From an uncultured Alphaproteobacteria bacterium (lineage in GTDB: Bacteria > Pseudomonadota > Alphaproteobacteria > Rhodobacterales > Rhodobacteraceae): a stretch of DNA of 38,129 bases. A model generated the notes under the pieces. The model worked only from the letters and a program-made list of their open reading frames with translations, made no database searches and had not been told where the DNA came from. The translations under genes were made by a program, and so were the position numbers. Positions within the stretch are counted from its first letter, which is position 1, and every line of letters starts with the position of its first letter. Below are positions 16,688 to 34,304 of the stretch, piece after piece. The stretch spans positions 1 to 38,129 of the forward strand of contig CACLZW010000014.1 in NCBI GenBank assembly GCA_902611475.1, in the 5' to 3' direction.

Positions 16688-16716
16688 ATGAAATATGAGA
16701 ATACTGAGGTTGAACT

Positions 16717-17007: not shown

Positions 17008-17077
17008 TTTTAAATATATTGTTAAATTTTTTAAAATAGTCCATTAGTTGGACTGTTTTCAATTTATAGCTTCAATT

Positions 17078-17935: not shown

Positions 17936-18041
17936 ATCAGGATATATCTTTAAGGGATTTCAGTTTGTTTTACATTCATGTATCTTGGGAAAATGGAATT
18001 TAATTTAAACCTGAAAAAAAATGAAAATATAAAAAATAATT

Positions 18042-19847: not shown

Positions 19848-20742
19848 TTTCATAGAAGATGTTGAAAGCATTTATACCCTTAAAGGAACCAAGGCATTTC
19901 AGGGTTTTGAAATCAATAGAACCTTATTTGAGGGAAAGAGCGAATATCAAGATATTGCAATTTACGAGAACGATACACTTGGTCGTGTGCTAGCCATTGA
20001 TCGTATAATTCAGATCACAGAATGTGATGAATTCGTTTATCAAGAGATGATGACGCATGTACCCCTTTTTTCACATGAAAAACCAGAGAATATTCTAATT
20101 ATTGGCGGTGGTGATGGTGGGATTTTACGCGAGGTTCTTCGCCATAAAGGCATAAAAAGAGTTGTCATGGCAGAAATTGATCAGATGGTAATTGATGCCT
20201 GCGTGGAATATATACCTAGCGTTAATAATGGAGGTGAAGTTTACCAAGATACTAGAGTGCAACTAATAGTTGGCGATGCTTTTGCGTATGTGAAAGAAAC
20301 AGATTTAAAGTTCGATGTGGTTATAATTGACTCAACTGATCCTGTAGGCCCTGGGGAGAAATTATTTAGCCATGAATTTTATAAAAACTTAGTTGAAATT
20401 CTTAAAGAAAATGCTGTGGTTTCCACCCAAGGAGGTGTCCCTCAATTTCAATCAGGTGAGGTTGGAAGTACTCTATCTTGCCTTGAGGAGGCAGGATTGA
20501 GCGCTAGTTGTTATATTGCTGCGATCCCAACGTATTATGGCGGATACATGACGCTGGGCTTTGGAGTTCTCAACTCCACTTGGTCACTACCCCTTTTAGA
20601 AACACTCAACAAACGTTTTAAAAGAGCATGTTTTAAAACTAGACATTACAGTCCAGAAATGCATTTGGCATCTTTTGTTCTTCCTCCCTGGATCCAAGAT
20701 GACATTAATAGAAGATCCAAGAAAGAAGAGGAGGCAGGATAA
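19831..20742 (+). CDS. speE: Spermidine synthase
   Basis: 303 residues. The aminopropyltransferase features are LFEGKSEYQDIAIYEN at the N-terminal strand domain, ECDEFVYQEMMTHVPL, the AdoMet-fold glycine loop IIGGGDGGILREVLRH (about 90-105), DQMVIDACVEY, and the catalytic DSTDPVGPGEKLF. It transfers an aminopropyl group from decarboxylated AdoMet to putrescine (or a similar diamine). It overlaps the upstream AdoMetDC-like gene and is followed after one base by speH, which makes the decarboxylated AdoMet. The ATG has AAGGAGG upstream, inside the preceding gene. Confidence 0.95.
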   Translation: MPARRNFIEDVESIYTLKGTKAFQGFEINRTLFEGKSEYQDIAIYENDTLGRVLAIDRIIQITECDEFVYQEMMTHVPLFSHEKPENILIIGGGDGGILREVLRHKGIKRVVMAEIDQMVIDACVEYIPSVNNGGEVYQDTRVQLIVGDAFAYVKETDLKFDVVIIDSTDPVGPGEKLFSHEFYKNLVEILKENAVVSTQGGVPQFQSGEVGSTLSCLEEAGLSASCYIAAIPTYYGGYMTLGFGVLNSTWSLPLLETLNKRFKRACFKTRHYSPEMHLASFVLPPWIQDDINRRSKKEEEAG

Positions 20743-20743
20743 A

Positions 20744-21157
20744 ATGAACCATCTCGATAGCGATTATTTCGTAACATGTTCAAAAACAGGCGATCAATTT
20801 GCAGGAAGGCACATACTTGCTGATTTTTGGGGCGTGGAACAAATGGGTGACTTAGATTTTATAAAAGAAGCAATAGAAGAAAGTGCTCGCAAGGCTGGCG
20901 CGACCATTCTGCATTCCTACTATCATCCTTTTGGTGAAGGAATGGGCGTAAGCGGTGTAACAGTTTTATCTGAAAGTCACATAAGTATACATACTTGGCC
21001 AGAACGTGATTTTGCTTCACTTGATATTTTCATGTGTGGGAATTGTGATCCACAGGATGCATTGGATTATTTAAAAAAGATATTGAACCCATCGTCAGTT
21101 AATCAAAGCCTGAACCGTCGAGGAGTGATCCCTGTGATTGCGCAAATGTATAAGTAA
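20744..21157 (+). CDS. speH: S-adenosylmethionine decarboxylase proenzyme (SpeH type)
   Basis: 137 residues from ATG 20744 (GAGGAGGCAGG site); a longer frame from 20675 overlaps speE and adds an unlikely N-terminus. The sequence carries RHILADFWG, AGATILHSYYHPF, the self-cleavage site LSESHISIHTWPE with pyruvoyl Ser78, His83 and DIFMCGN with Cys98, the full catalytic set of class 1B enzymes. The proenzyme cleaves itself before Ser78 to form the pyruvoyl cofactor and decarboxylates AdoMet for speE. It is the last gene of the polyamine operon; a decayed cassette repeat begins about 50 bases downstream. Confidence 0.95.
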   Translation: MNHLDSDYFVTCSKTGDQFAGRHILADFWGVEQMGDLDFIKEAIEESARKAGATILHSYYHPFGEGMGVSGVTVLSESHISIHTWPERDFASLDIFMCGNCDPQDALDYLKKILNPSSVNQSLNRRGVIPVIAQMYK

Positions 21158-21205
21158 AATTTCAGGTTTGCACCTCATAATAGGTAAAAAATCATTGATC
21201 AGATA

Positions 21206-21344
21206 TACATGGGAAAGACCCTGTAAGATTGGCACATAATAATTGAAATAAATATAAACTTTTTATAAGTAGTCAAATAATTGCCAAGTTTCTTATGGTA
21301 CATAATTTTCAGAGAAATCACGAAAACTGTTGTCAAAAAGTTAA
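21206..21344 (-). repeat. Cassette repeat, decayed leftmost copy
   Basis: The right end, AATCACGAAAACTGTTGTCA (within 21315-21338), is identical to the copy at 23001, and only the second GTTGTCAAAA is lost. About 95 bases upstream, CATGGGAAAGACCCTGTAAG (21208-21227) matches the anticodon-arm core with several changes, at the spacing expected for a full copy. The tRNA 3' portion further left is not recognisable. It lies just after speH and marks the outer edge of the array. Confidence 0.6.
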
Positions 21345-21373
21345 ATTTTTAGAATAAAAATGGAGTCATAAAA

Positions 21374-22987
21374 TTGTATGAAGTCGAGCTAACGAATTCG
21401 TATTTTCCGGCACAAGATGATGCAGATATACGAGACATCACCATAGGTGATTTTCTTCAGGAGACTGCTAACGCCTTTCCTGATAATGTTGCCATGGTTG
21501 ATATCGATGATAATGGCGACGCTTGTTCATTATGGACTTACAAAGAATTATTTTTAGAAGCTGAAAAACTCTCGACAAGCCTCTCCAGCCGGTTTCAAAA
21601 AGGGGAGAAGGTCGTGGTATGGGCTCCAAATATACCACAATGGGTTTTTATGGAATATGCATGTGCGTTGTCTGGCTTAGTTCTTGTAACTGCTAATCCT
21701 TCATTTAAACAAAAAGAATTGTGTTATGTAATTGAACAATCAGGAGCAGTTGGGCTCTTTCTTATACCGGAATATCGTGGCAATAAGATGGATGAGATAG
21801 CAAAGGAAGCTATCAAAGGTAATGAGCTGTTAAGAGAAGTAACAGACCTTTATGATAGAGATAAACTATACTCGACAAATAAAGAAAATGAGCCAAGGGC
21901 TAAAGTATACCCTAGTGATCCCGCTCAAATACAATACACAAGTGGTACAACGGGCTTCCCTAAAGGAGCAGTATTAACACACAAGAGCTTACTCAATAAT
22001 GCAAAGATTTATAGTGAAAGAAAACAAATTTCACAGGAATCTGTTTGGTCAAATTTTATGCCACTATTTCATACAGCAGGGTGTGCAACAGGAACTTTGG
22101 GTTGCTTAGCTGCCGCTTGTAAAATGCTACTTATTAAACAGTACAAAGCAGATATCTTTGCGAAGCTTATAGAACAACAAAAAGTAACAATATGCTTCGC
22201 TGTTCCAACTATGTTGTTTGATCTTCTAGAGTCATTGAAGCTAAAGCCGAGAGATACGTCTTCTCTTGAGGTGATTTCAACTGGTGGTGCTCCCGTTCCA
22301 CCCGAATTAGTGACAAGAGTAAGAGAGCGCCTTGGATGTCATTTGTTGTCTGCTTTTGGTCAAACTGAGCATAGTCCAATGATAAGTCTTAATCCCATAG
22401 GAGCTACACTTGAACAAATTACGAAGACTGCTGGGCAACCTCTCCCTAAAACGGAGGTTTCTATAAGATCGACCGATACCAATGAAGTTTTGGCATTAGG
22501 AGAAGTAGGAGAAATTTGTGCTCGCTCTTACGCTATAATGTCTTGTTACAATGATAATCCTGAAGCTACTAAAAAGACTATTGATAATGAAGGCTGGTTG
22601 CATACAGGTGATCTTGGGACCATGGACAAAAATGGTTTTCTAACAATAACGGGACGAGTCAAAGACATGATCATTAGGGGAGGCGAAAATCATTTCCCTG
22701 CAGAGATTGAAGCTGTTTTAGTGACTAATCCAGACATTATGCAGGTTGCAGTAGTTGGATTACCAGACGAAAAATGGGGCGAAGTGATAGCTGCTTTCTT
22801 TACGTCAGAGACCACACCGAAAAAGGAAGATCTAAAGTCTCATGCAAGAAATCATATGTCCGCCCAAAAAACACCTTCTATTTGGGTTAAGGTTGGAGAT
22901 TTTCCTTTAACCGGATCAGGAAAAATACAAAAGTTTGAAATAGTAGATAGATATGTCAAAGGTACTTATGGGTATGTCATAAACTAG
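21374..22987 (+). CDS. Medium/long-chain-type acyl-CoA ligase (cassette cargo)
   Basis: 537 residues of the ANL family: IQYTSGTTGFPKGAVLTH near residue 187, STGGAPVPPEL and SAFGQTEHSP (about 310-335), GWLHTGDLGTMDKNGFL (about 412), GRVKDMIIRGGENHFP and the C-terminal PLTGSGKIQKFEI with the catalytic Lys. It makes acyl-CoA from a carboxylic acid and ATP. The start is TTG with GGAG 9 bases upstream; no nearby in-frame ATG exists. Translation begins 30 bases after the decayed repeat and ends 13 bases before the next one, so this gene fills its cassette exactly. Confidence 0.9.
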   Translation: MYEVELTNSYFPAQDDADIRDITIGDFLQETANAFPDNVAMVDIDDNGDACSLWTYKELFLEAEKLSTSLSSRFQKGEKVVVWAPNIPQWVFMEYACALSGLVLVTANPSFKQKELCYVIEQSGAVGLFLIPEYRGNKMDEIAKEAIKGNELLREVTDLYDRDKLYSTNKENEPRAKVYPSDPAQIQYTSGTTGFPKGAVLTHKSLLNNAKIYSERKQISQESVWSNFMPLFHTAGCATGTLGCLAAACKMLLIKQYKADIFAKLIEQQKVTICFAVPTMLFDLLESLKLKPRDTSSLEVISTGGAPVPPELVTRVRERLGCHLLSAFGQTEHSPMISLNPIGATLEQITKTAGQPLPKTEVSIRSTDTNEVLALGEVGEICARSYAIMSCYNDNPEATKKTIDNEGWLHTGDLGTMDKNGFLTITGRVKDMIIRGGENHFPAEIEAVLVTNPDIMQVAVVGLPDEKWGEVIAAFFTSETTPKKEDLKSHARNHMSAQKTPSIWVKVGDFPLTGSGKIQKFEIVDRYVKGTYGYVIN

Positions 22988-23000
22988 GAGTTATGGTTAA

Positions 23001-23177
23001 TGGCTGGGGTGGTAGGATTCGAACCTACGGTACACGGGATTAAAACCCGTGGATATTGTTGTCATAATTTATTAAGATTCTCAAAACCCTTGATAATAGT
23101 TCTTGTGTTTCTCATTTTTTGCTTATGTGTTACGAGGAAAATCACGAAAACTGTTGTCAAAAGCGTTGTCAAAAAAT
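23001..23177 (-). repeat. Cassette repeat, full copy (177 bp)
   Basis: The first 49 bases equal the tRNA-Gln 3' part (33331-33379) with one change (GATCAAAAC to GATTAAAAC). The core inverted repeat is CACGGG-ATTAAAA-CCCGTG. The rest follows the 27026 copy with about 80% identity and ends in two GTTGTCAAAA motifs 13 bases apart. The 9-bp iterons are partly decayed. The 5' half of the tRNA is absent, so no tRNA can be made. Confidence 0.85.
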
Positions 23178-23224
23178 ATCTTTTTAAAATACTACGAAGA
23201 ATAAAAAATTACTTTTAATGGAGA

Positions 23225-23623
23225 ATGAATTTGGCTGATCTACCTAATGTCAATATCGAAGAAATAGAAAAATTTAAAGAGATTGCAGGAACTTCAAAAG
23301 ATTGTTCAATTATTATGTTGAATCTTAATGAGTACAACGCAGAAGCTGAGTTTCCAAATGGCAAACTTTATAAAGACTACATTGAAATATTGAATATTCT
23401 TCTAGCTGAGGTTGAAGCCAAAGTTTTATGGCAAACAGAGGCATCAGCTACACTTATCGGCAATCAGAAAATTCATGAAGCTTTAGGGATCTGGTATCAC
23501 AGTCATCAGTCTTTTCTGGATTTGATGACCGCACCATCATCTGAGAAAAACATGAAATTAAGAAGTCTAGCTGTAAAAAAGGCTGACTTACACAAATGTA
23601 GCGATTATACAGCTATGTTATAA
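23225..23623 (+). CDS. DUF1330-like small protein (cassette cargo)
   Basis: 132 residues. SIIMLNLNEYNAEAEFPNGK, then KDYIEILNILLAEVEAKVLWQTEA and LGIWYHSHQSFLDLM resemble the alpha+beta-barrel DUF1330/monooxygenase-like group, with the pattern of an N-terminal strand, a Y..Y helix and a late F.dlm segment. No catalytic residue can be named. The ATG has TGGAGA just upstream, 48 bases after the repeat. The TAA is directly followed by a right-end repeat fragment at 23624, so the gene occupies a minimal 0.4-kb cassette. Confidence 0.65.
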   Translation: MNLADLPNVNIEEIEKFKEIAGTSKDCSIIMLNLNEYNAEAEFPNGKLYKDYIEILNILLAEVEAKVLWQTEASATLIGNQKIHEALGIWYHSHQSFLDLMTAPSSEKNMKLRSLAVKKADLHKCSDYTAML

Positions 23624-23660
23624 CGATGATTGCGAAAACTGTTGTCAAAAACGTTGCCAA
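23624..23660 (-). repeat. Cassette repeat, right-end fragment only
   Basis: The sequence GCGAAAACTGTTGTCAAAA (from 23632) followed by GTTGCCAA reproduces the terminal 37 bases of the full repeats, including both 10-bp motifs (the second with one change). No tRNA-derived or iteron part precedes it. It is squeezed between two genes: the stop of the DUF1330-like gene touches it, and the helicase stop is 6 bases away. Confidence 0.75.
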
Positions 23661-23665
23661 TATTT

Positions 23666-25060
23666 CTATCTTTTTCTGAAGTTACGTCTGGAATTTTGTC
23701 TGCCTCTTTTCTTTTTTTTTCGATCACTTTTCATTTGAACAATTTGTTCTTCGCCAAGACTTTCCACCTCCTCTATAGGAGGAAGTTTTCCCGTGAAATT
23801 TTCAATTAACGCTAAGGCTATGTCTTCATTAGAAAACCGACTTAATAGCTCATTAGCAAGCTTAAGTTCACTAGAACTTTTTTTTCGGCTTGTTGAAAGG
23901 TAGTTTATGATCTTTTCATTATCTTTAAGTTCTATTTCTTCTTGAGAAAGAAATTTGTTGATAACCGGACTTACCTTTGCCGAATTGATCAATCTTTCAT
24001 ATCTTCTTTTCTCGCCAGGTGAACAAAAAAGAATACTCCGACCCTTTTTCCCAGCTCTCCCGGTTCGCCCACTTCTGTGTATTAAGGTTTCTGGATTATG
24101 AGGGAGCTCAGCATGTATCACTATATCTAGGTTAACCAAGTCAATACCTCTTGCAGCTACGTCTGTCGCAACACATATCTTACACCTACCATTTTTTATA
24201 GATTGTAATGCCTTAAATCTCTCTGATTGATTCAATGCGCCAGATAAAGAGGCAACAGAAAAACCTCTATTTAATATTCTAGATGATATATGTGTTACAG
24301 CATTTCTAGTAGAACAAAAAATAATAATAGTCTTATCATCATGAAAACGGAGAAAGTTGAATATTGCGTTTTCAATATCATGTTTTTTTACTAAATATGT
24401 TTCATAAGAAATATCGGTATGGGCTCTGCCAAGTCTAGTTGCTTCAATTCTGACTGCATTTCTTTGGTACTTTGATGCTAATGACAATATTTTTTTTGGG
24501 ATGGTTGCTGAAAACATAAGTACCCTCTTATTCGCGGGACTTTGATCTACAATCATGTCTAAATCTTTTTTAAAGCCTAGGTCAAGCATTTCATCAGCTT
24601 CATCAAGGACAAGCGATCTTAGATAATTTAATTGTAATGTTTTCCGGCGTATATGGTCATTAATCCTTCCGGGAGTTCCTATTAAAAGATCAACTCCTTT
24701 AGAAATATTTTTTCTTTCTTTTTTTATATCCATCCCACCGATCGCCGTTGATATTCTGATCTCAGTCTTAGAAAACAGCCATGCTAATTCATTAAAAACC
24801 TGTAAAGCTAATTCTCGCGTGGGGGTAACAATTAGAGTTTTAAGTTTATTATCTGTAGCCAGAATTTCTTTAAGTCCAGCAACCGATATTGACAAACCGT
24901 AAGCAAGTGTTTTTCCAGAGCCTGTTTGGGAGCTCACCAGAAGATCTTTATCATTGTTGCTAGGATCAAGCACTAAGCTTTGAACTGTCGTTAGTTTGTC
25001 ATACCCCTTTTCTTTTATTGAAGATTGTAATTCTTCAGGAATAGATTTTGTTTCAAGCAT
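23666..25060 (-). CDS. DEAD-box RNA helicase (cassette cargo)
   Basis: 464 residues with the complete motif set: Q motif (TTVQSLVL), motif I SSQTGSGKT (43-51), Ia PTRELALQ, Ib TPGRIND, II LDEADEML, III FSATIPK, IV IIIFCSTR, V VATDVAARGID and VI HRSGRTGRAG. A lysine/arginine-rich tail of about 30 residues probably binds RNA. It should unwind RNA duplexes with ATP, for example in ribosome assembly or cold adaptation. The gene reads leftward, and its stop lies 6 bases from a repeat right end. Its promoter side faces another repeat fragment (25122). Confidence 0.9.
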   Translation of the reverse strand: MLETKSIPEELQSSIKEKGYDKLTTVQSLVLDPSNNDKDLLVSSQTGSGKTLAYGLSISVAGLKEILATDNKLKTLIVTPTRELALQVFNELAWLFSKTEIRISTAIGGMDIKKERKNISKGVDLLIGTPGRINDHIRRKTLQLNYLRSLVLDEADEMLDLGFKKDLDMIVDQSPANKRVLMFSATIPKKILSLASKYQRNAVRIEATRLGRAHTDISYETYLVKKHDIENAIFNFLRFHDDKTIIIFCSTRNAVTHISSRILNRGFSVASLSGALNQSERFKALQSIKNGRCKICVATDVAARGIDLVNLDIVIHAELPHNPETLIHRSGRTGRAGKKGRSILFCSPGEKRRYERLINSAKVSPVINKFLSQEEIELKDNEKIINYLSTSRKKSSSELKLANELLSRFSNEDIALALIENFTGKLPPIEEVESLGEEQIVQMKSDRKKKKRGRQNSRRNFRKR

Positions 25061-25121
25061 TCGCTCAATCTATAGAATAATAAAAATAATGATATAGCTA
25101 AGATTTATAATTTTCATAGGG

Positions 25122-25152
25122 TGGCTGGGGTGGTAGGACTCAGACCTACGGT
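25122..25152 (-). repeat. Cassette repeat, tRNA-end fragment only
   Basis: The sequence matches the 3' end of tRNA-Gln (CCA, acceptor, T-arm; 31 bases, three changes in the T-arm) and then stops; the core, iterons and terminal motifs are missing. The DUF924 stop codon begins 3 bases after the match ends. Confidence 0.7.
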
Positions 25153-25154
25153 TC

Positions 25155-25907
25155 TTATTTAATTTTTTGATCAAAAGAAAGATTGCCGCCTGCCCAAATT
25201 GGTAAATTCTCTTTATCATTGAGCCATTGGTCTTCTTCAGGAGTATTGGCTCTTCCAAACTCTAAATTTCTTTGTGGGTAACGCCCAAATTTTTCTAAAA
25301 CTTGCCTATGTTGATCTACCGCTTTTTTATTTCTTCCTTCAAATAAACTAAAATCAGGATAAGCACCAATTGCCATGTCAATTATTTCGCATGCGCGAAC
25401 AAGGTCGATTATTTCTTCTGAATGGGCCAAAGCCCAGGGGAGTAAATATAGTAGTGCAGGAGGCAATTTTAAAGTTTGATCAACTTTGTTTTTACTTACT
25501 AGGTCTCGAACGAGCTCACGTCCTATATAGTCAAACGAAAAAGCTTCAGCTGTACCTCGAAAACACGAGCGAGATAGTTGGTCTGCTAGCAATACCCTAG
25601 CAACTTGGCCTTCAAGGGTAAACCATTCATCTTCAATTAGGGTTTCTGGATCTGCTTTCAATTCGCGAATAACAGATGAAAATGGCTTGCAAATATCGTC
25701 CAAAGCGGTTCCACTCCTAAACCATATGCCTAATAGTGGTTCCACTGTTTCATCGTAAAAAAGGCTTTTTCTATCATTAGCATTATTTATATCGCAGCCA
25801 CACATATAATTCAAAACACTACTTGGAGAACGAGGATTAGTAAGAGCTTTCAGGACTGCGGGTTTTCTACTAAATTGTTCAGGGGTAAGATCTTCTGGTA
25901 ACATCAT
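25155..25907 (-). CDS. DUF924 family protein (cassette cargo)
   Basis: 250 residues of the alpha-helical, TPR-like DUF924 family. The conserved features are IWFRSG near the front, VLLADQLSRSCFRGTAEAF, LLPWALAHSEEIID and KFGRYPQRNLEFGRANTPEE near the C-terminus. Function is unknown; the protein should be cytoplasmic. Two ATGs in tandem (25907 and 25904) are possible starts. It is divergent from the oxidoreductase gene across 79 bases, and its stop abuts the repeat fragment at 25122. Confidence 0.85.
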   Translation of the reverse strand: MMLPEDLTPEQFSRKPAVLKALTNPRSPSSVLNYMCGCDINNANDRKSLFYDETVEPLLGIWFRSGTALDDICKPFSSVIRELKADPETLIEDEWFTLEGQVARVLLADQLSRSCFRGTAEAFSFDYIGRELVRDLVSKNKVDQTLKLPPALLYLLPWALAHSEEIIDLVRACEIIDMAIGAYPDFSLFEGRNKKAVDQHRQVLEKFGRYPQRNLEFGRANTPEEDQWLNDKENLPIWAGGNLSFDQKIK

Positions 25908-25986
25908 TTAAAATTCTTTTTTAATAGTGTATTTTAATAGTGTAACATAAATCAATCAACGTTCTATCGTAATCAAAGGAGTAGAG

Positions 25987-26928
25987 ATGCGTGCGATTGG
26001 CTTAATGAAGCATGGCGGACCTGAAGTGCTAGAGCTTATTGAAGTGCCTGAGCTTAAACCTGAAGCGGATGAAATACTAGTGCAGGTGTTTTGCGCAGCT
26101 ATAAATCCAACAGATATTTTAGCTCGTAATGGAGGTATAGCAGAACGACAAAAACCTTATGATCCTCCGTATGTTCCGGGAATGGATATTTCTGGGAAAG
26201 TAGTTGCGATTGGAGAAAACGTCAAAACAGCCCTCAAAAAAGGCGACGCGGTCATGGCAATGGTCATACCAAATGGTCAACATGGGGCATACCGCGAACA
26301 AATTGCTCTAAAATCAGGAGCAGTGGTACCAATTCCCAAGGGGGTCAGTTTTGAAGAAGCCTGTACTTTACCAATGAATGGATTAACGGCAAAGCTTTCT
26401 CTAGAACTTTTGAACTTAAATTCAGGCGATAAGTTAGCAGTTACTGGCTCTGCAGGAGCCTACGGAGGTTACATGATCCAAATTGCAAAAACTTTAGGTT
26501 TATATGTGATAGCAGATACGTCAGAGAAAGACCAAAATTTAATTAAATCACTTGGTGCAGATCTATCGCTCCCAAGAGGAGAAGAATTCATTGAACATAT
26601 ATTGGAACGGTTTCCCGAAGGCGTAGATGGCTTAGCAGATGGCGCTTTATTAAATGAAAAAGCAGTTGCCGCAGTCAAAAATGGAGGCTCCTTTACCGCG
26701 GTACGAGGTTATCAGGGGACAGGTGAGCGTGATATAAATTTTACTCAAACATGGGTAAGAACTCAAGATTGCATGTACGAAAAATTAGATGATTTAAGGA
26801 AGCTTGTAAACGCAAACAAAATTTCCTTGAGGTTAGCCGATACATTTAGTCCGTCTCAAGTGTCGGAAGCACATAAACGATTTGAAGGTGGCGGGGTCAG
26901 AGGCCGACTTGTAATTAAATTTAATTGA
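25987..26928 (+). CDS. MDR-family NADPH:quinone oxidoreductase-like protein (cassette cargo)
   Basis: 313 residues of the zinc-independent medium-chain dehydrogenase/reductase group. MRAIGLMKHGGPEVLEL at the start, VFCAAINPTDILARNG, YVPGMDISGKVVAIGENV and AVTGSAGAYGGYMIQIAK (cofactor loop, about 150) are typical of QOR/CurA-like enzymes, and RGRLVIKF ends the fold. It reduces quinones or enones with NAD(P)H. A good GGAG site precedes the ATG. It shares a cassette with the divergent DUF924 gene; the next repeat begins 97 bases downstream. Confidence 0.9.
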   Translation: MRAIGLMKHGGPEVLELIEVPELKPEADEILVQVFCAAINPTDILARNGGIAERQKPYDPPYVPGMDISGKVVAIGENVKTALKKGDAVMAMVIPNGQHGAYREQIALKSGAVVPIPKGVSFEEACTLPMNGLTAKLSLELLNLNSGDKLAVTGSAGAYGGYMIQIAKTLGLYVIADTSEKDQNLIKSLGADLSLPRGEEFIEHILERFPEGVDGLADGALLNEKAVAAVKNGGSFTAVRGYQGTGERDINFTQTWVRTQDCMYEKLDDLRKLVNANKISLRLADTFSPSQVSEAHKRFEGGGVRGRLVIKFN

Positions 26929-27025
26929 TTTTAAAGAGGGTATGATCCTTATTCAAAAACTTGCATAGCTTTCGAAATGTGAAGAATATTTTTAAGAAGC
27001 AGCAAAGTTATCTTCATTTAGGAAA

Positions 27026-27200
27026 TGGCTGGGGTGGTAGGATTCGAACTTACGGTACACGGGATCAAAACCCGTGGGTATTGTTATCAGGAGTTATCAG
27101 GATTCTCATAACCCTTTAAAATAGTTCTTATGCTTCTCATGCTTCTTATGCGTTATCAGGAAAATCACGAAAAGTGTTGTCAAAAGTGTTGTCAAAAAAT
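27026..27200 (-). repeat. Cassette repeat, best-preserved full copy (175 bp)
   Basis: Bases 27026-27074 equal the tRNA-Gln 3' part with one change. The core CACGGG-ATCAAAA-CCCGTG (27058-27076) is a perfect 6-bp inverted repeat around the 7 anticodon-loop bases. GTTATCAGG occurs at 27083, 27093 and 27152. Three tandem 9-bp units TTCTTATGC/TTCTCATGC/TTCTTATGC lie at 27125-27151. GTTGTCAAAA occurs at 27176 and 27188. This ordered set resembles the core plus arm and accessory sites of a tyrosine-recombinase attachment site. Confidence 0.85.
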
Positions 27201-27237
27201 TAACTTACACGGACCTAGTGTATTCACTTCTTTTTAA

Positions 27238-28620
27238 CTATTTGATTATTGATGTTTGTAATGCTTCGATGTAGTGAGTTCTCCATACACTTATATTAAA
27301 AGATTGTAATTGATCAAAAGCACTAAGCCATCTCCTCAAGCGTTCTTTTTTAGGCATTTTTAGGGCATGATGCAATGCATCTGCTACTCCCTCCGGATCA
27401 TGAGGGTTCACAATCAATGCGTCGGGAAATTCCTCTGCTGCGCCTGCAAATCTTGACAAAATTAGCACCCCTGGATCACTCACGCGTTGGGAAGCTATAT
27501 ATTCCTTTGCTACCAAATTCATTCCGTCTCTCAGCGGTGTTACTAGTCCAATTCTACTATTTCTAAAAAATCCCATAAGACTTTTTTGCTGGAATCCTTT
27601 ATTGAGATACCTAATTGGCGTCCAATCAAAGTCACCGTACGCACTATTTATTTTTCCAGCACTAAGCTCTAATTTTCTTCTTATTTCTTTGTATTGAAAA
27701 ACAGAGCCTCTTGAGGTCGGGGCTATTTGAAGCAAAGTTGTTGATCTGATGTGTTCACTATGATTTGTAAGAAGATGATTGTATGCCGAGAATCTAAGCT
27801 CAAGCCCCTTTGAATAGTCTAGCCTATCGACTCCGACTATTAGTTTGTCCGTTTTAATACTTTTGACTAGTCTTTTCACTTGAGGAGAGTTATCAGTTTC
27901 TTCTGATATTTTTATAATTTTGTTCGTATCTATAGATATTGGAAAATGTTTTACTTTAGACTTTTTCCCTAAAGCAAATATTGATCCATCTGGCTCAACT
28001 GAGCCTCCTAGCTCACTTATGATATAATCTAAAAAGATAAGTACATGTTTTCTAGTTTGGAAGCCTATCAAGTCAAACTCTAATAGAGCATCAACTAGCT
28101 CTCGATGATCAGGTAATGCAGTCAAAATTTCTTTTGATGGCCATGGTATATGTAAAAAAAAGCCTATTTTCTGAGTGCATTTGAGCTTTCTCAACTCTTT
28201 AGCAATTAATAAAAAATGATAATCATGAACCCATATCAAATCTTCATTATTGAGAAGTTTTTTAATCATTAAGGAAAAAGACTTATTAACCCTTTTATAA
28301 CTCTCGAATTTTTTTTTGGAATAATCTACTAAGTCCAATCTATAGTGAAAAATGGGCCAAAGTACTTCGTTACAATAACCGTTGTAGTAATTTTCATAAT
28401 CTTTTTTTGGTAAATCAACAATGGCATAAGTAATTCCTCCATCCTTTTTAACAAGTGGTTTAATATTCTTATCTGTAGTGACTGCGCCACTCCAACCAAA
28501 CCAAAGACCGTTTGTCTCCTGCAGCGTATCAAATAATGCAACTGCAAGACCGCCAGCTGCCTCAGGTTTCTTTTCCTTGGGAAGCATAACTCTGTTAGAA
28601 ATAACGACTACTCTACTCAT
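27238..28620 (-). CDS. otsA: Trehalose-6-phosphate synthase (cassette cargo)
   Basis: 460 residues of GT20 type. The N-terminus has ISNRVMLP and the UDP-glucose loop AAGGLAVAL (21-29). [51 protein letters not shown] and [16 protein letters not shown] are all family signatures. It makes trehalose-6-phosphate from UDP-glucose and glucose-6-phosphate, usually for osmotic or cold protection. A GGAGAG site precedes the ATG. It lies 15 bases after otsB, and its stop is 37 bases from the repeat at 27026. Confidence 0.95.
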
Positions 28621-28635
28621 AACTCTCCAATTGAT

Positions 28636-29430
28636 TTACCTTGATTTCAGAAGCTGCTCCATTATTTCGTGAACGGATTTAACATTAGGTAAAAAGAAGT
28701 TTGCTTTACTTCTTTTATAATTTCCAACACGAACTGACCAGCCGCCTATCTTGTTAACAGTTTCAAAACCATCTTCATCGCTTATATCATCACCGATAAA
28801 AATCGGTCTTCGCTTTATAAAAGGTTTAGTTTTCATATAGTATGAAATTGCCGTTCCCTTATTGTGGCTCAGAGGTTTAACTTCCAAAACTTCCTTTCCT
28901 TCAAGTAAAATTAATTTTGGTTCATACTTTACAATCTCCAACATTATTTTACTAATCTCTTTCCTGTCGATCGCTGAATTTCGAAAATGAACAGTTAAAT
29001 TTGAACCCTTGTTTTCAATCTCAATATTTTTTTTGCCATTAAGTAATTCACTAATCTTATAAGCAATTCCCTTTATTTTTCCAGACTCGGCTTGGTACTC
29101 CTTAAGTCGGAGTGTATCTCTCAATTGTGCTCCGTGGTTTCCAGCAACAGAAATTTTATCGTTCTCGAAAATCCTATCTAGATCGTCTAATGATCTACCA
29201 CTAATAAGCGCTAACGCACCTCCAAGTCTATTACGGATGGTTTGCAGTTTTTTTTGCAATTTAAAACAAGGTTTGATCAAGCTAGGACTACTCTCAATCT
29301 CATATAGCGTGCCATCGACGTCCAGGAATAGAGCTAGTTGTTGGATATCTTTCGGAAGTAATTTTACGGTAAATACTGATGCCACTTTCAAGGTTTCGTT
29401 TTTTTTGATTAAATCAACTTTTCTAAACAC
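28636..29430 (-). CDS. otsB: Trehalose-6-phosphate phosphatase (cassette cargo)
   Basis: 264 residues of the HAD superfamily: LFLDVDGTLYEIE with nucleophile Asp37 and Asp39, LALISGRSLDDL, VAGNHGAQLRD, the conserved Lys in VKPLSHNKGTAI and GDDISDEDGFE for the metal-binding acidic pair. It dephosphorylates trehalose-6-phosphate made by the downstream otsA. The start is uncertain: GTG 29430 is the longest, while a GTG about 15 codons in would also keep the whole domain. It is the first gene of the otsBA pair, with an inverted repeat 100 bases upstream. Confidence 0.92.
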   Translation of the reverse strand: MFRKVDLIKKNETLKVASVFTVKLLPKDIQQLALFLDVDGTLYEIESSPSLIKPCFKLQKKLQTIRNRLGGALALISGRSLDDLDRIFENDKISVAGNHGAQLRDTLRLKEYQAESGKIKGIAYKISELLNGKKNIEIENKGSNLTVHFRNSAIDRKEISKIMLEIVKYEPKLILLEGKEVLEVKPLSHNKGTAISYYMKTKPFIKRRPIFIGDDISDEDGFETVNKIGGWSVRVGNYKRSKANFFLPNVKSVHEIMEQLLKSR

Positions 29431-29529
29431 CTTACTAATTCGACGGGTTAATATACCACTCTAGAAGCAGAAAGGTGTAAAATATGCAAAACAACTATAT
29501 CGTATTAACTAAATTTATTTCTTACAAAT

Positions 29530-29544
29530 ATTACGTAACGTAAT
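29530..29544. promoter_or_regulatory. Inverted repeat upstream of otsBA, possible operator
   Basis: ATTACGT-A-ACGTAAT is a perfect 7-bp inverted repeat with a single central base, 100 bases before the otsB start and in the only sizeable non-coding stretch before it. The size and symmetry suit a dimeric regulator. No regulator can be named. Confidence 0.35.
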
Positions 29545-29590
29545 CCTAATAATTTTATTCATTGGTGAGTCTTAAACTAAGGCATTAATA

Positions 29591-29760
29591 GGTAGCATTA
29601 CAAGATTTTAAGCAACGGTGCAAAAATATAAATCCGTAGATATGGTTATCAGAAGTCACAAGATCCTCATAACCTTTTCAAAAAAGCTCTTATCCTTATC
29701 ATTCTTCTTGTGCGTTATGGGAAAATCTTTAAATCTCTTGTCAATTTTGTTGTCAATTTT
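29591..29760 (-). repeat. Cassette repeat, degenerate full-length copy
   Basis: From AAATCCGTAGATATGG (about 29629) to the paired TTGTCAATTTT motifs ending at 29760, the sequence follows the 27026 copy base by base with about 65-70% identity by eye, including GTTATCAGAAG, CCTCATAACC, CTTATCATTCTTCTTGTGCG and GGGAAAATC. The tRNA-derived part to its left is barely recognisable (GGTAGCATT for GGTAGGATT). It is clearly older or less constrained than its neighbours. Confidence 0.7.
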
Positions 29761-29791
29761 CCTTTTTAGTCTATCTAGTACTTTGCACCCG

Positions 29792-29807
29792 AGGGGCATT
29801 TGCCCCT
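29792..29807. other. GC-rich hairpin between repeat and FG-GAP gene
   Basis: AGGGGC-ATTT-GCCCCT is a perfect 6-bp stem with a tetraloop in otherwise AT-rich DNA, 52 bases before the FG-GAP gene. No T-run follows on either strand, so it is not a standard terminator. It could act on the mRNA leader or be a residue of the insertion. Confidence 0.35.
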
Positions 29808-29859
29808 GTCCCGAAAATAAGATTAAAAAAGTTCCCCTGTAAAATGATGAATAAATAAG

Positions 29860-31356
29860 ATGGATTTAAAAAAACTGTTTAAAAAAGTTGCTGCATATAT
29901 TGTCTTGGTCAAAAAAAGCACATTTGTTACAGCTATTTTTGCTGTATGTTTATGTGTAGCAGAAAACAATCTTACAGCTAATGCTCAGTTTTTTCAAAAC
30001 ATTACCGATAAAATAGAAAATAACGTACCGAGATTGTCTTATGGCGTGGCTGTAACAGATTTTAACGATGATGGAAAAATGGAGTTTATAGTTACAGGGT
30101 TTCGGTATCCTAATCTCGCACTGAGCTATGAGAATGGTTCATATACAAATATTAATTCTAGTGAACTATTTGCTGATGAAAAAAGGTCATCGATTGGAGT
30201 TGTCGCTTGTGATGTCGATCAGGATGGATATGAAGAAATTTATTTCTTGAATACCGACACTTATAGTGGAACGAAAAAATATTCCGATCGTCTAATAGAC
30301 GTGGATAAAACGATTTACGATATTTTCGGTTTTAAAAAAAATCAGGCAAACTTGAACCTTACGGCGGGTAGGTCGGTGGCTTGCGTTGATAGACATGGCA
30401 ACGGTAATTATGGAATTTATGTCTCCAACTATGGGGGTCCAACAAGATTTTACGAATTGGAAGCTGATATTATCCAAGACATCGCACCTTCACTCGGAAT
30501 AAATTCTACGACCGGTGGTCGTGCTGTCGTAGCAGGGAATATTCTATCAGGAAAAGTCGATATTTTTGCTGCGAATGAACGCGGACCTAATTTTTTACTG
30601 ATAAATAAGGGCGGCACATACACTGACAAAGCTTTAGAGTACGGTATCGATGACACACTCCAAAATGGGAGAGGAACGGCTCTATCAGATATTGGTTATA
30701 ATGGAAGCTTAGACCTTATCACAGGAAATTGGAATGGTTTCCACAGAATATACACTCATGCAAACAACACATTTGTCGATACAGCGTCTTTAAATTTTAG
30801 ACAACCTTCAAAAATTAGAACCGTTATATCCGCTGATTTCGATAATGATGGTTTTGATGAGATATTTTTGAACAATATCGGTCAACCAAATAAATTATTT
30901 AGAATTCTAGATAACAATAAACTTGAACAGTTGGAATTGACGAATGCTCTAGAAAAGATTGGTCTGGGTACTGGTGGAGCAGTAGCAGATTTAAATGGTG
31001 ACGGAATTTTGGAGCTACTGATTGCTCATGGTGAAAGTGCTCCTGAACCATTAAGCCTTTTTTCAGCTAATGTTAAAGACGATTTTCAATATTTAAGAAT
31101 AGAACCTAGAAACTCTTACGATGCGCCAGCAAGAGGCGCTACCGTAACACTTAAAACAAATTTCAGAACCCACGCTAAAACTATAGATGCAGGCTCTGGG
31201 TATTTATGCCAGATGGAACCAGTAGCCCATTTTGGAATCCGTAAAAATGAAGAGATTGAACACATTCAGATAAATTGGACTGACGGTCAAAAATCAAAAT
31301 ACAAAATTGAAAAGCTGAACCATCAATATGTTTTCAACCAAGGTAAAACAAATTGA
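29860..31356 (+). CDS. Secreted FG-GAP/ASPIC-UnbV beta-propeller protein (cassette cargo)
   Basis: 498 residues. The N-terminus is basic and then hydrophobic (STFVTAIFAVCLCVA, about 24-38), ending near NAQ: a likely signal peptide. Calcium-binding FG-GAP-type repeats follow: VTDFNDDGKMEFIVTG, CDVDQDGYEEIYFLN, SADFDNDGFDEIFLNN and VADLNGDGILELLIA. The last 85 residues match the ASPIC/UnbV domain (RGATVTLKTN, GYLCQMEPVAHFG, INWTDGQKSKY). Such proteins are exported and probably bind ligands or surfaces; the function is unknown. The following secreted gene starts 2 bases after its stop. Confidence 0.88.
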   Translation: MDLKKLFKKVAAYIVLVKKSTFVTAIFAVCLCVAENNLTANAQFFQNITDKIENNVPRLSYGVAVTDFNDDGKMEFIVTGFRYPNLALSYENGSYTNINSSELFADEKRSSIGVVACDVDQDGYEEIYFLNTDTYSGTKKYSDRLIDVDKTIYDIFGFKKNQANLNLTAGRSVACVDRHGNGNYGIYVSNYGGPTRFYELEADIIQDIAPSLGINSTTGGRAVVAGNILSGKVDIFAANERGPNFLLINKGGTYTDKALEYGIDDTLQNGRGTALSDIGYNGSLDLITGNWNGFHRIYTHANNTFVDTASLNFRQPSKIRTVISADFDNDGFDEIFLNNIGQPNKLFRILDNNKLEQLELTNALEKIGLGTGGAVADLNGDGILELLIAHGESAPEPLSLFSANVKDDFQYLRIEPRNSYDAPARGATVTLKTNFRTHAKTIDAGSGYLCQMEPVAHFGIRKNEEIEHIQINWTDGQKSKYKIEKLNHQYVFNQGKTN

Positions 31357-31357
31357 T

Positions 31358-32065
31358 ATGACTCGGTATATTTTCACACTTATTGTCATGTGCTTAATAA
31401 TTCCCCCAATAAGCTTAGGAGAGTCTCGAAGTCCTGATAGTTTAAAATTGATACGTTATTATGAAGAGTTACGAGCAGATTGGGGGAAAATATTTCCAAA
31501 CAAAAACAGAAATGCTGGCGGTGCTTTATTTTTTAAATATATTTTAGATAATTCAAATTCTAAAGATGAGTTTTTTGAGAAGAATAAGATGTATTGTAGT
31601 GTCTCTGGGTCACTTGTACGGCCCGGTTCTGAACCTGAATTTGTTTCTGTCAGAGGTCATGATGAAGAATTAATTTGCGGCTCGCTTTACAGATGTTGTT
31701 GGCCCTGCTCTTGTGATGTGATGAAATATGTTCAGGTGCAGGCCCTTGAAAAAACATTTGATGATAAGACGGAATTAATCAACGTGTTAACAATCAAAAA
31801 CCCCTGTGAAAAACCAGATTTTCCTGAAGAGGTCGATAGAGAGTCCATTTGTGTTGGCACCTCTCTAAATAAAAGAAGAGTGACTGAAATAAATGGAAGG
31901 CTTGTAGTTGGAGTACTATTCGAAAGCAAAATCTGTTCACCTAATGACATTGAAAAGATAAATAGAGAAGTTATAACAGGAAGCTACTGTCCACTTAGAA
32001 ATAATACACCACTCAAAGAGGTCAGGGGAGGTATGGGAGACATTTTCATAAAAATGGCTAATTAA
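31358..32065 (+). CDS. Cys-rich secreted protein of unknown function (cassette cargo)
   Basis: 235 residues from ATG 31358, one base after the FG-GAP stop; a longer frame from 31328 lies inside that gene and would hide the signal peptide. MTRYIFTLIVMCLIIPPISLG is a clear signal sequence. The mature part contains about ten cysteines, including the dense cluster CGSLYRCCWPCSCDVMKY, which suggests disulfides or metal binding in the periplasm. I recognise no family. Tight coupling implies that it acts with the exported beta-propeller protein. Confidence 0.65.
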   Translation: MTRYIFTLIVMCLIIPPISLGESRSPDSLKLIRYYEELRADWGKIFPNKNRNAGGALFFKYILDNSNSKDEFFEKNKMYCSVSGSLVRPGSEPEFVSVRGHDEELICGSLYRCCWPCSCDVMKYVQVQALEKTFDDKTELINVLTIKNPCEKPDFPEEVDRESICVGTSLNKRRVTEINGRLVVGVLFESKICSPNDIEKINREVITGSYCPLRNNTPLKEVRGGMGDIFIKMAN

Positions 32066-32122
32066 ATTTTTATTTGATTTTGCTTTGAAATTTGTTCACT
32101 CACCGTGCATGTTAGCAATAAA

Positions 32123-32293
32123 TGTCTGGGGTGGCAGGATGCGAACCTACAGCACACGGGATCAAAACCCGTGGATATTGTTATCAGGAGTTATCAGTTT
32201 CTTCACAACCCTTTAAAATAGTTCTTATGCTTATCATGCTTCTTATGCGTTAGCAGGAAAATCACTAAAACTGTTGGCAAAAGTGTTGTCAAA
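32123..32293 (-). repeat. Cassette repeat, full copy next to the tRNA-proximal cassette
   Basis: The tRNA-derived 49 bases carry five changes, more than in the copies at 23001 and 27026, but the core CACGGG-ATCAAAA-CCCGTG is intact. GTTATCAG occurs twice. The 9-bp units TTCTTATGC/TTATCATGC/TTCTTATGC are present, followed by GTTGGCAAAA and GTTGTCAAA at the right end. The methyltransferase stop codon lies inside the last motif. Confidence 0.85.
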
Positions 32294-33107
32294 TTTTCTT
32301 GGCGGTGACTAATCTGTAGGGGAAAGGCATACTAACACTTCCATTAATCTCAAACTCTTTAAATCTCTCAATCAGTTTTGACTCAATAGCAGGTAAGTTT
32401 TTTGGATCTTGCGAGTCTAATAAGCCCTTCGATCTTACCGCAACTTCTCTATACATCTGGGGAATTGAATTTGCAGGTACTCCTATATTAAAGATATTGT
32501 TTATAGCTTCGAAATTTGTCATTACGAGGCCTTGAGCAGATAGGCGTTCTGATGCCCGGTCTGGATCACTAAAATCATCAATAGGAGGTGCTGTTGGTAA
32601 TCCTACGTCGTAGCTCCCTAACTCACCTATAGTTTCCGCCAGCATTCCAAAAAATGGGGATTCTTGGACAGGAGCCCAAACAGTAAAAACAAAAAGTCCA
32701 TTTTGTTTAAGAACGCGCCCAACCTCCTTAATCGCTTTGTCAGGATGCGCAAAATGCAAGATGCCAAACGTGCATAAAATTTTTGTAAAAATATTATCGC
32801 TATACTTAAGATTCTCAGCATCACCTTGTTCAAATTTAAGACCTGGGTTTTGCTTTTTTGCCTCAAGCACCATAGCGTCAGCAAAATCCGTTCCTATAAC
32901 ATTATGTGATATCTTTGCTATTTCATTAGTTCCGTAACCTGGTCCAGATGCTAGTTCTAGTACAATATCTTCTTTTGAAAGGGCTAAAGCGTTTACTGCT
33001 TTAGGAATTATCTGCTTAGCGTTTGCACTAGCCCACTTATCATAAGTATACGCACGCTCTTCCCAACCTTCTTTTTCAAAGTTTTTGAAATCTTCAAATT
33101 CAGTCAT
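32289..33107 (-). CDS. Class I SAM-dependent methyltransferase (cassette cargo)
   Basis: 272 residues. The AdoMet-binding motif I is VLELASGPGYGT (about 49-60), followed by acidic IGTDFADAM, EQGDAENLKY and the UbiE/Coq5-like CTFGILHFAHPDKAIKEVGRVLK. The substrate-side C-terminus is not diagnostic. The protein should methylate a small molecule; none can be named. Its TGA stop is formed by the TTGACAAC sequence of the repeat right end, so the cassette boundary supplies the stop. It is the only gene between the last repeat and the intact tRNA. Confidence 0.85.
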   Translation of the reverse strand: MTEFEDFKNFEKEGWEERAYTYDKWASANAKQIIPKAVNALALSKEDIVLELASGPGYGTNEIAKISHNVIGTDFADAMVLEAKKQNPGLKFEQGDAENLKYSDNIFTKILCTFGILHFAHPDKAIKEVGRVLKQNGLFVFTVWAPVQESPFFGMLAETIGELGSYDVGLPTAPPIDDFSDPDRASERLSAQGLVMTNFEAINNIFNIGVPANSIPQMYREVAVRSKGLLDSQDPKNLPAIESKLIERFKEFEINGSVSMPFPYRLVTAKKI

Positions 33108-33330
33108 TTTATTAAACCGCCATTAATAGTTTTTATGTTATTCGATTAGCCAAGAAAGATAATAAAAAATAACATTTCAAAAATCAGAGTCAAAAAAAAG
33201 GTTATGCGATTGTTAACAACATTATTGAAAGTATTTTCAAAAACTATTTGCAACCAAACTGTTCCCGAAGATGGCAGTGAGTATTTTTGAATAACAGCCA
33301 ATAAATACTGTGCTTTATTTGTGTTTGATG

Positions 33331-33405
33331 TGGCTGGGGTGGTAGGATTCGAACCTACGGTACACGGGATCAAAACCCGCTGCCTTACCGCTTGGCTACA
33401 CCCCA
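33331..33405 (-). tRNA. trnQ: tRNA-Gln (UUG)
   Basis: A 75-nt complete cloverleaf on the minus strand: acceptor TGGGGTG/CACCCCA, discriminator G73 and encoded CCA, D-arm GTAGCCAAGCGGTAAGGC, anticodon arm GCGGG-TTTTGAT-CCCGT giving anticodon TTG, and T-arm GTAGG-TTCGAAT-CCTAC. It is the only whole tRNA in the window. Its 3' 49 bases are duplicated in the cassette repeats to the left, with homology ending at the 5' strand of the anticodon stem. It reads in the same direction as kdsA, 53 bases downstream of it. Confidence 0.95.
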
Positions 33406-33458: not shown

Positions 33459-34304
33459 TCAGTCAAAAGATTTTACGACATCATCAATTGCTCTAATTTT
33501 ACTTAATAGCCCTGATAACTGGTCAAGAGGAAGCATAGAAGCACCATCTGACGGCGCTGTCTCAGGCTTCTCGTGGGTCTCAATGAACACACCAGCGATA
33601 CCAACTGCTGTGCCTGCTTTTGCTAAAGTTTCAATGAACTCTCTTGAGCCTCCACTCTCTGAGCCTTTTCCTCCTGGTTGTTGAATAGAATGAGTAATAT
33701 CTAAAACGGTTGGGAACCCACTTTGTCTAAGAATTTCTATGGAACGCATGTCGCAAACCAAATCATTGTAGCCAAAAGTAGTGCCTCGTTCACAAAGGAG
33801 TAAATTTTTGTTACCTGTAGATATAAACTTTCCGGCCACCTGCTGCATCTCAGCGGGGGATAGAAATTGCCCCTTCTTTATATTGACGGGTTTATTCGTT
33901 TTACTAGCTGCAATGATTAAATCCGTCTGTCGGCATAGAAAAGCAGGTATTTGCAGAATATCGACTTCTTTTGCTACAAGCTCGCATTGTTCTGGTGTGT
34001 GCACATCCGTCAATGTGGATATGTGTAGACTGCTCTTCAATTTTTGGAAGATTTTAAGACCTTCTTCAATTCCAAGGCCACGCTTTGATAAATGTGAAGT
34101 TCGATTGGCCTTATCAAATGACGATTTAAAGACAAAGTTGATAGCATTACGATCACAGATTTCTATTAATTTTTCGGCGATCATCATAGCATGCTCAAGG
34201 CTTTCAAGCTGGCATGGACCAGAAATAAGCGTCAATGGGTACTTATTTGAGATTTTGAGACCATTTAGTTCAATTGTATGATCAGTGAGTTCAGTGTTAT
34301 TCAT
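33459..34304 (-). CDS. kdsA: 3-deoxy-8-phosphooctulonate (KDO-8-P) synthase
   Basis: 281 residues of usual length. The signatures are LISGPCQLES (phosphoenolpyruvate side), FKSSFDKANRTS, TDVHTPEQ, LQIPAFLCRQTDL, NIKKGQFLSP, CERGTTFGYNDLVCDMRSI, DITHSIQQPGG and FIETHEKP. It condenses phosphoenolpyruvate with arabinose-5-phosphate to make KDO-8-P for lipopolysaccharide, which shows a Gram-negative host. It lies beside the tRNA and diverges from the mnh operon across a 91-base gap that should hold both promoters. Confidence 0.96.
   Translation of the reverse strand: MNNTELTDHTIELNGLKISNKYPLTLISGPCQLESLEHAMMIAEKLIEICDRNAINFVFKSSFDKANRTSHLSKRGLGIEEGLKIFQKLKSSLHISTLTDVHTPEQCELVAKEVDILQIPAFLCRQTDLIIAASKTNKPVNIKKGQFLSPAEMQQVAGKFISTGNKNLLLCERGTTFGYNDLVCDMRSIEILRQSGFPTVLDITHSIQQPGGKGSESGGSREFIETLAKAGTAVGIAGVFIETHEKPETAPSDGASMLPLDQLSGLLSKIRAIDDVVKSFD

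Follow-up and report, generated by a model that had tools for sequence, protein, structure and literature searches.

The tRNA-Gln locus and its repeats

We analyzed a 38,129-nucleotide (nt) stretch of DNA from an uncultured alphaproteobacterium (contig CACLZW010000014.1 of assembly GCA_902611475.1; hereafter, the window), in which the 12 kb between left and right flanking genes carry ten cargo genes, arranged as an array of repeat-bounded units that ends at a tRNA-Gln gene. The window corresponds to contig C14 of genome G000, the assembly of which spans 1.59 Mb and is an estimated 62% complete. Both ARAGORN and Rfam identified the tRNA-Gln(TTG) gene as intact, in agreement with an earlier reading of the sequence alone (hereafter, the original prediction). 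That reading had also described seven same-direction copies or parts of a repeat of ~175 bp, the full copies of which begin with the 49-bp 3' part of the tRNA. Our repeat search supported both statements, although an additional, diverged copy at 29604 had been missed.

The full repeat is 174 nt long and comprises a 49-bp core, which is identical or nearly identical to the 3' part of tRNA-Gln and reaches its anticodon stem, and an arm of ~125 bp of non-tRNA sequence, which terminates in paired TGTTGTCA motifs. Upstream (left) of the core, unrelated units have no sequence in common, a second (P) arm aside. With the self match set aside, the other full copies scored 6e-64 and 2e-55, and all six repeat matches in the window's own assembly fell on the window contig; chance is thereby excluded. 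Together with a profile built from 59 full copies, these searches placed three full copies, one diverged copy, three fragments, and the tRNA core at eight places in the window, all in one orientation and spaced 0.6 to 2.6 kb apart, near the 0.4 to 2.5 kb originally given for the units. By itself, the repeat search placed the first full copy at 22998, the arm-only pieces at 21306 and 23616, and the head-only piece at 25121.

21264..21338, plus strand: arm-only fragment (columns 95-163; profile), left end of the array
22999..23172, plus strand: full repeat, 87% identical to the copy at 27023 (profile)
23611..23660, plus strand: arm-only fragment (columns 124-173; profile)
25122..25154, plus strand: head-only fragment (columns 4-36) without arm, left end of the DUF924 unit
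27023..27196, plus strand: full repeat, reference copy, with the exact paired arm motif at 27176-27196
29604..29756, plus strand: diverged near-full repeat, the eighth place, found by the profile only (columns 19-173, 69 bits)
32120..32293, plus strand: full repeat, 90% identical to the copy at 27023 (repeat search and profile)
33222..33242, plus strand: possible decayed P-arm motif of the tRNA-adjacent unit, differing by 5 edits and lying ~106 bp ahead of the tRNA core (motif scan with edits)
33331..33379, plus strand: 49-bp core, i.e., the tRNA 3' part common to the full repeats (repeat search)
33331..33405, minus strand: intact tRNA-Gln(TTG), the target gene, which closes the array on the right (ARAGORN, Rfam)

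The cargo between these repeats is mostly metabolic, as had been proposed, but one unit encodes a DEAD-box RNA helicase. The earlier description of a serial, integrase-free array at one tRNA was likewise borne out, in that a six-frame search for the tyrosine recombinase family PF00589 yielded no match on the window contig. The flanks and units are as follows, with gene families assigned by family search unless stated otherwise.

19831..21157, plus strand: f0 and f1 of the left flank, taken by eye to be speE and speD
21374..22987, plus strand: unit M, AMP-binding enzyme (acyl-CoA ligase type)
23225..23623, plus strand: unit H, 132-aa protein without a family match in Pfam or NCBIfam
23666..25060, minus strand: unit A, DEAD-box helicase (RNA helicase families)
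25155..25907, minus strand: unit B, DUF924 protein
25987..26928, plus strand: unit C, alcohol dehydrogenase/quinone oxidoreductase family
27238..28620, minus strand: unit D, trehalose-6-phosphate synthase (OtsA-like)
28636..29430, minus strand: unit D, trehalose-phosphatase
29860..31356, plus strand: unit E, FG-GAP/ASPIC-UnbV repeat protein
31328..32065, plus strand: unit E, 245-aa protein without a family match in Pfam or NCBIfam
32289..33107, minus strand: unit G, methyltransferase
33459..34304, minus strand: right flank gene f7, labelled kdsA, followed by f8-f12 (mnh/mrp by eye)

Distribution of the array

The array is a genus-wide property of small-genome bacteria. The repeat was matched in 20 of the 22 genomes of the genus, the window's own included, and 20 of the 22 are less than 90% complete. 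Neither of the two genomes without a repeat match (G008 and G013) yielded a kdsA match at E ≤ 1e-40, so they give no evidence of an empty site. Across the mapped set (24 stretches from 20 genomes), we counted 118 copies, fragments, and tRNA cores scoring at least 12 bits, which lie on a single strand within each stretch; profile hits below 12 bits, comprising every minus-strand hit and three plus-strand hits, were dropped. The median spacing between copies was 1.9 kb (range, 0.5 to 10.5 kb; 94 spacings, 83 of them under 4 kb), and a contig carried at most ten copies, tRNA included. Flank genes f0/f1 were present in 14 of the 24 stretches, kdsA in 13, and the tRNA in 15. Direction was anchored by a flank gene or the tRNA in 22 stretches, G003 C38 and G006 having no anchor, and that of G003 C9 was set by the older left neighbors f2-f4.

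Three further contigs (G017 C28, G018 C42, and G019 C11) match the repeat and lie outside the count of 118. The first covers the left end of this locus, with the array beginning right after f4, and the second is a short contig adjoining a gene that is also present in the G004 array; the third is considered below. Both G003 C9 (L058) and G017 C28 (L166) have the array directly after f4, with the speE-speD-like genes not there, indicating that the left flank is itself variable.

In a GTDB-based collection, 19 of the 21 matching stretches belong to AG-numbered uncultured Alphaproteobacteria, assemblies that we take from their naming to be of the single-cell type, and the other two are from one contig of a metagenome-assembled genome labelled Rickettsiales. 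Going by these names, the host genomes are probably those of open-ocean single cells, and naming together with family size suggests that the family is Rhodobacteraceae. Elsewhere in the family, G111 C8 (308352-323429) matches the tRNA-Gln 3' part twice, at a distance of 15 kb, which suggests an ordinary island at the same tRNA.

Unit order and content differ between close relatives

Alignment of the locus across relatives, the check proposed in the original prediction, revealed that whole units are gained, lost, relocated, and transferred, and that the joints fall in the repeats; the same gene order in all relatives, which it had named as the opposing outcome, did not occur. More specifically, units turn up in differing company across the mapped arrays, and both orders were seen for 42 of the 86 unit pairs present in at least two arrays (35 of 74 after removal of G002, G004, and gene family f37). 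Array genes occur in both orientations, and each of 33 unit gene families kept one orientation throughout, f37 being the sole exception among the 34 compared.

Such differences were found at very high relatedness, as determined from flanking genes (a pair of genomes needed at least five flanking genes, and an alignment had to cover at least 60% of the shorter gene). The flanking genes of G000 (the window) and G010 have a mean identity of 99.1%, yet their arrays differ in order and content: units run B-C-D-E in the window versus D-E-B-C in G010, and each has units that the other lacks here. For G005/G016 (99.1%) and G009/G010 (97.3%), the order of shared units is kept and the intervening or following content differs. 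Blocks of identity stop at repeats; for instance, positions 17949-25319 of G017 correspond to 10990-18357 of G020 (7,372 bp, 99.1%), a block that spans from the first repeat column to the end of a core, adjoining the tRNA in G017 and lying internally in G020, where another unit follows. Where units B and J have only a 33- to 36-nt core and no left arm, they follow six and two different units, respectively.

Units transfer between species and genera

Several units are more similar between genomes than their surroundings. The genes of unit F are 99.3 to 99.8% identical between G011 and G017, whereas six flanking genes average 88.4%. This unit comprises seven genes, including ABC transporter parts, SnoaL-like proteins, and a LysR regulator according to Pfam, which ruled out our first guess of an osmolyte unit. 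Similarly, unit M of the window shares 94.6% nucleotide identity with its counterpart in G004, whereas eight flanking genes average 81.7%. Overall, among 280 gene comparisons drawn from genome pairs with five or more flanking genes, 60 lay at least 5 points above the flanks.

Unit C was also found in G054, a member of another genus of the family, where it is repeat-bounded at that genome's own tRNA-Gln. Its protein is 93% and its DNA about 89% identical to unit C of the genus, whereas kdsA is just 56% identical at the amino acid level. The cores on G054 C10 (L118/L119; at 6097, 7396, and 23020) match the anticodon arm of the tRNA-Gln of G054 itself and, by eye, the arm beside the core at 6097 matches the element. 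As the core is host-like and the arm is element-like, an exchange near the anticodon loop is indicated. This copy of unit C in another genus represents a datable transfer.

Anatomy of the putative attachment site

Most units run from a core plus arm to the next core or to the tRNA, and some borders are arm-only or part-core. The exact paired arm motif occurred 32 times in 14 of the 22 genomes, in every case on an array-bearing contig, compared with two matches for a backwards control pattern. The full repeat looks like half of an attachment site, i.e., a tRNA core joined to an integrase-type arm site.

The original prediction had suggested searching for a tyrosine recombinase next to the same repeat, and one was found in a single relative, G003, although none lies on the window contig. 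The G003 integrase (L059:2219-3388; 389 aa) matches PF00589, with a match to an arm-binding domain slightly under the Pfam cut-off, and resides in a tRNA-adjacent unit that also encodes a 66-aa HTH_17 protein, two HTH_36 proteins, and a flagellin. The latter (L059:133-2130; 665 aa) carries a long insert between conserved ends. Top matches of the integrase in the PDB were 3nkh and 6emy (presumably the Tn1549 Int), and its top phage matches were ~30% identical; it thus resembles integrases of the phage and integrative and conjugative element (ICE) types. Among the mapped arrays, PF00589 was matched on G003 C8 only.

Arm-like motifs lie on both sides of the integrase-bearing unit. The left edge of its contig holds the arm also seen in integrase-free units, and the right edge an exact P motif, TTGTTGTCAAAGTGTTGTCAAAA, 111 bp before the tRNA core. 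With 1 to 3 edits, the P motif recurs in G007, G009, and G010, where it lies 111 to 113 bp ahead of the core, so that 4 of 15 tRNA ends but 0 of 74 other ends carried it at 0 to 3 edits. These four ends have a motif pair, similar to that of the arm, ~95 bp beyond the core. Shuffled motifs never reached 5 edits in 1335 trials, and the candidate in the tRNA-adjacent unit of the window stands at that level. At internal right ends, likeness to the P arm was detected at G017 7618 (5 edits; P-arm profile seed) and G017 5298 (18.8 bits). A first, gap-free motif scan had located three sites outside repeats, one of them at the G003 right end. Across all right-end clusters, a P arm was recognizable in 4 of 37, i.e., both arms are not generally retained.

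The same motifs occur beside viral integrases. When the paired motif alone was searched against 2.9 million IMG/VR viral contigs, eight contigs were matched, and in six of these an integrase related to that of G003 is encoded ~0.3 kb or less from the motif. The other two were L163, in which the stretch ends ~50 bp beyond the motif, and L164, in which the motif lies near a tRNA-Thr and no integrase was matched. Seven of the eight contigs hold two paired motifs (at most 2 substitutions), and in six of those seven, as in the G003 unit, one version is 19 bp and the other 20 bp long. In L159, L160, L162, and L163, the paired motifs are 177 to 178 bp apart around what is by eye a tRNA- or tmRNA-like 3' end. 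The related viral integrases presumably bind the paired TGTTGTCA motif, and motif pairs at this distance around such a 3' end provide a simple search handle for this integrase group. Three other searches of the viral contigs gave no relevant match: peptide patterns for the G003 integrase matched six stretches, none of them related, and neither an attachment-junction pattern nor the arm with its conserved lead yielded any match. The G003 integrase likewise gave no match at E ≤ 1e-50 in 295 family genomes, a null that shows little because the draw excluded G003 and therefore had no positive control.

Repeat decay and recombination joints

Serial insertion at the tRNA predicts that repeats decay away from it, and near-full repeats were indeed best kept beside the tRNA, with decay increasing with distance (Spearman -0.62; 46 copies from 12 arrays, which are not independent). 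A within-genome permutation supported this gradient (p=2e-4; 6 genomes, 35 copies).

Two joints could be resolved, namely, the C-D joint in the window (G000) and the E-F joint in G020. The E-F repeat of G020 has three variants in common with the E-A repeat of G012 (columns 22, 30, and 53); the repeats preceding F in G011, G012, G017, and G021 have none of them. Column 53 lies to the right of the tRNA-identical core, and its variant is also present in a few other copies. In the window, the C-D repeat resembles the repeats that follow C elsewhere through the last motif, with D starting right after, whereas in G010 a decayed repeat precedes D. Neither pattern would result from a crossover within the core. 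Both crossovers accordingly fall in the arm, outside the core, making homologous recombination likelier than integrase action as the source of the reshuffling at these joints.

Cargo observations

Some cargo families recur across the mapped stretches. A DEAD-box helicase is present in 13 of the 24, the window included, in slots that vary, and in G014 it lies directly at the tRNA. FG-GAP repeat proteins recur in three different units (window 29860-31356, and families f36 and f56 elsewhere) and are perhaps surface or secreted proteins. Members of family f37 (e.g., L035:9408-11321) are cyclase-domain plus tetratricopeptide repeat proteins, and an open reading frame of the window (7299-9062) resembles this family by eye.

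Origin of the array and alternative explanations

These data are probably best explained by serial, integrase-driven insertion at tRNA-Gln, followed by loss of the integrase genes and then by repeat-driven reshuffling. According to this model, integrative units would enter one after another at the 3' part of tRNA-Gln, each full repeat joining a tRNA-identical core to one arm (P') of a tyrosine-integrase group, with a member of that group responsible for the founding insertions. We infer the role of the integrase from the two-sided motifs, the integrase-bearing unit of G003, the decay of the repeats, and the site-like stretches in viral contigs. Most present units would then be remnants similar to cis-mobilizable elements, without integrase or recognizable second arm, and their repeats would allow deletion, swapping, and import of whole units, by homologous recombination inside the arm at the two resolved joints. 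Serial insertion followed by reshuffling would separate two steps that are usually lumped together, i.e., integrase-driven founding and repeat-driven rearrangement.

Several observations weigh against this explanation. The tyrosine integrase is present in a tRNA-adjacent unit in just 1 of the 22 genomes, and the five PF00589 matches in the window's own genome are all on other contigs. Moreover, 33 of the 37 right-end clusters have no recognizable P arm, two of them showing weak likeness over 54 to 69 bp, and past integrase mobility is for that reason something that we infer for most units. In 34 of the 280 gene comparisons, identity was at least 5 points below the flanks, so some units are older, or evolve faster, than their surroundings. 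The right core of unit C is host-like in both genera, which is not expected from a direct, one-step transfer as an integrase element. Finally, G019 C11 (L168 1636-2061 and 2879-2968) carries an arm piece and a small gene away from the tRNA-Gln locus; this piece has no core, is found ~0.8 kb from a tRNA-Ser, and matches part of the G018 array at 92% identity across 439 bp, but in the orientation opposite to that in the tRNA-Gln array.

The strongest competitor, though an unlikely one, is a live integron-like system in which an integrase acting in trans excises and re-inserts integrase-free units using the core and P' arm only. Such activity would be consistent with species having in common, as repeat-to-core blocks, units that lack an integrase and a recognizable P arm, with the retention of the exact paired motif, and with an integrase lying between the same arms in one congener. 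However, the two new joints that could be resolved cross over in the arm, to the right of the tRNA core, and 21 of the 22 genomes have no close relative of the G003 integrase: the other 17 genomes matching it did so at E 1e-5 or worse, G007 (91% complete) has seven PF00589 matches of which none matches it, and G002 (90% complete) has just two tyrosine recombinases (310 and 328 aa), which we take to be XerC/D. Equally doubtful is the broader proposition of a genus-wide pool of recombinase-free metabolic units that circulate among species and genera, moved in trans by a rare integrase acting on a core and one arm. The integron-type machine favored in the original prediction is not supported, given sites that look like a tRNA core with phage/ICE-type arms, the presence of genes in both orientations, and, at the two resolved joints, crossovers in the arm outside the core.

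Less probable again is homologous recombination as the only process, whereby an old one-locus element would have exchanged units with imported DNA between the 175-bp repeats. The position of the joints in the arm fits this scenario, as does the constant orientation of nearly all unit gene families, and a single between-repeat deletion could turn a G012-like order into that of G020. Recombination by itself nevertheless leaves unexplained why the repeats consist of a tRNA 3' half with integrase-type arm motifs, why a second motif stands at a fixed distance at tRNA-adjacent ends, and why there are a decay gradient and the same motifs beside viral integrases. Carriage of units by gene transfer agents, with subsequent recombination at the repeats, is very improbable: the median copy spacing would fit their particles and such agents are known in the presumed host family, but GTA_TIM (PF13547), the only marker tested, was matched in 0 of the 22 genomes (and in 1 of 14 controls, from Caulobacter). 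An assembly or amplification artifact can practically be dismissed: chimeras are conceivable in genomes that by their naming are mostly of the single-cell type, but the 20 mapped genomes repeatedly show the same flanks, the same orientation, and the same set of units.

Thus understood as the product of serial insertion and later reshuffling, the array suggests how small-genome bacteria can keep an exchangeable gene stock at one locus without mobility genes. The combination of a core, two arms, and a matching integrase also constitutes an anatomy that can be searched for elsewhere.

Comparison with known systems

The original prediction had held that tRNA-targeted islands normally occur singly. 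This is no rule, since stacks at one gene, some of them recombinase-free, have been described (PMC3146451, PMC7563491, PMC7771536). The nearest described case is that of the Dehalococcoides ssrA islands, which lie in tandem beside one small-RNA gene and are bounded by direct repeats of its 3' end; they carry metabolic cargo, and 16 of 31 have an integration module, the others having been suggested to be cis-mobilizable (PMC3146451). Thus, both systems are RNA-gene stacks with 3'-end repeats, metabolic cargo, and members without a recombinase. According to the same account, however, the Dehalococcoides islands use a recombinase of another class (serine), a 20-bp repeat, and, for vcrABC islands, units of ~12 kb (PMC3146451), whereas in our array the integrase is of the tyrosine type and present in 1 of 22 genomes, the repeat measures 174 bp and bears arm motifs, and the median spacing is 1.9 kb.

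Streptococcal cis-mobilizable elements (CIMEs) are reported to be att-flanked, recombinase-free, and stacked at one target gene, with the most decayed elements furthest away (PMC7563491, PMC5704250). Recombinase-free units, stacking at one gene, and the trend in decay are all shared with our array (PMC7563491). In the cited accounts, CIME stacks comprise two or three elements (PMC7563491, PMC5704250), whereas here there are up to ten copies per contig and order varies between close relatives. We do not file the array as a plain CIME array because both arms are not kept in most units.

Repeated tRNA ends are held by Prochlorococcus islands. Additive flexible genomic islands, described as cassettes at tRNAs of aquatic bacteria with direct repeats of tRNA ends (PMC7771536, PMC4119200, PMC10872708), resemble the array in having variable cassettes at a tRNA with tRNA-end repeats, and our locus presents their feature of tRNA-associated cassettes at the same location that vary between strains. 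The descriptions consulted mention neither a shared arm nor reordering of a shared unit set. Tycheposons have a tRNA target in common with the array (PMC10872708), but are described as cargo elements of 4 to 200 kb with their own tyrosine recombinase (PMC10872708), whereas here an integrase is rare and most spacings fall below 4 kb.

Integrons, and the integrase-free arrays termed clusters of attC sites lacking integron-integrases (CALINs), are similar in that short cargo units share a recombination site (PMC11389934). They differ in that the sites of our array are tRNA-derived and bear arm motifs, and its units are multi-gene with genes in both orientations. A search of the window for inverted repeats of at least 25 nt, relevant to attC sites, found none, with shorter arms not searched and nothing folded. 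Nothing that we tested makes the array an integron, attC and IntI not having been searched with proper models.

The array works like a cassette array, and the category that fits best is a tandem accretion array of cis-mobilizable-type elements at an RNA gene. Within the literature searched, the array itself was not found in print, and its density, small units, 174-bp shared site, reordering at 99% identity, and copy in another genus seem to be new. In sum, the array is a clear example, and an unusually dense one, of a known mode of bacterial gene collection.

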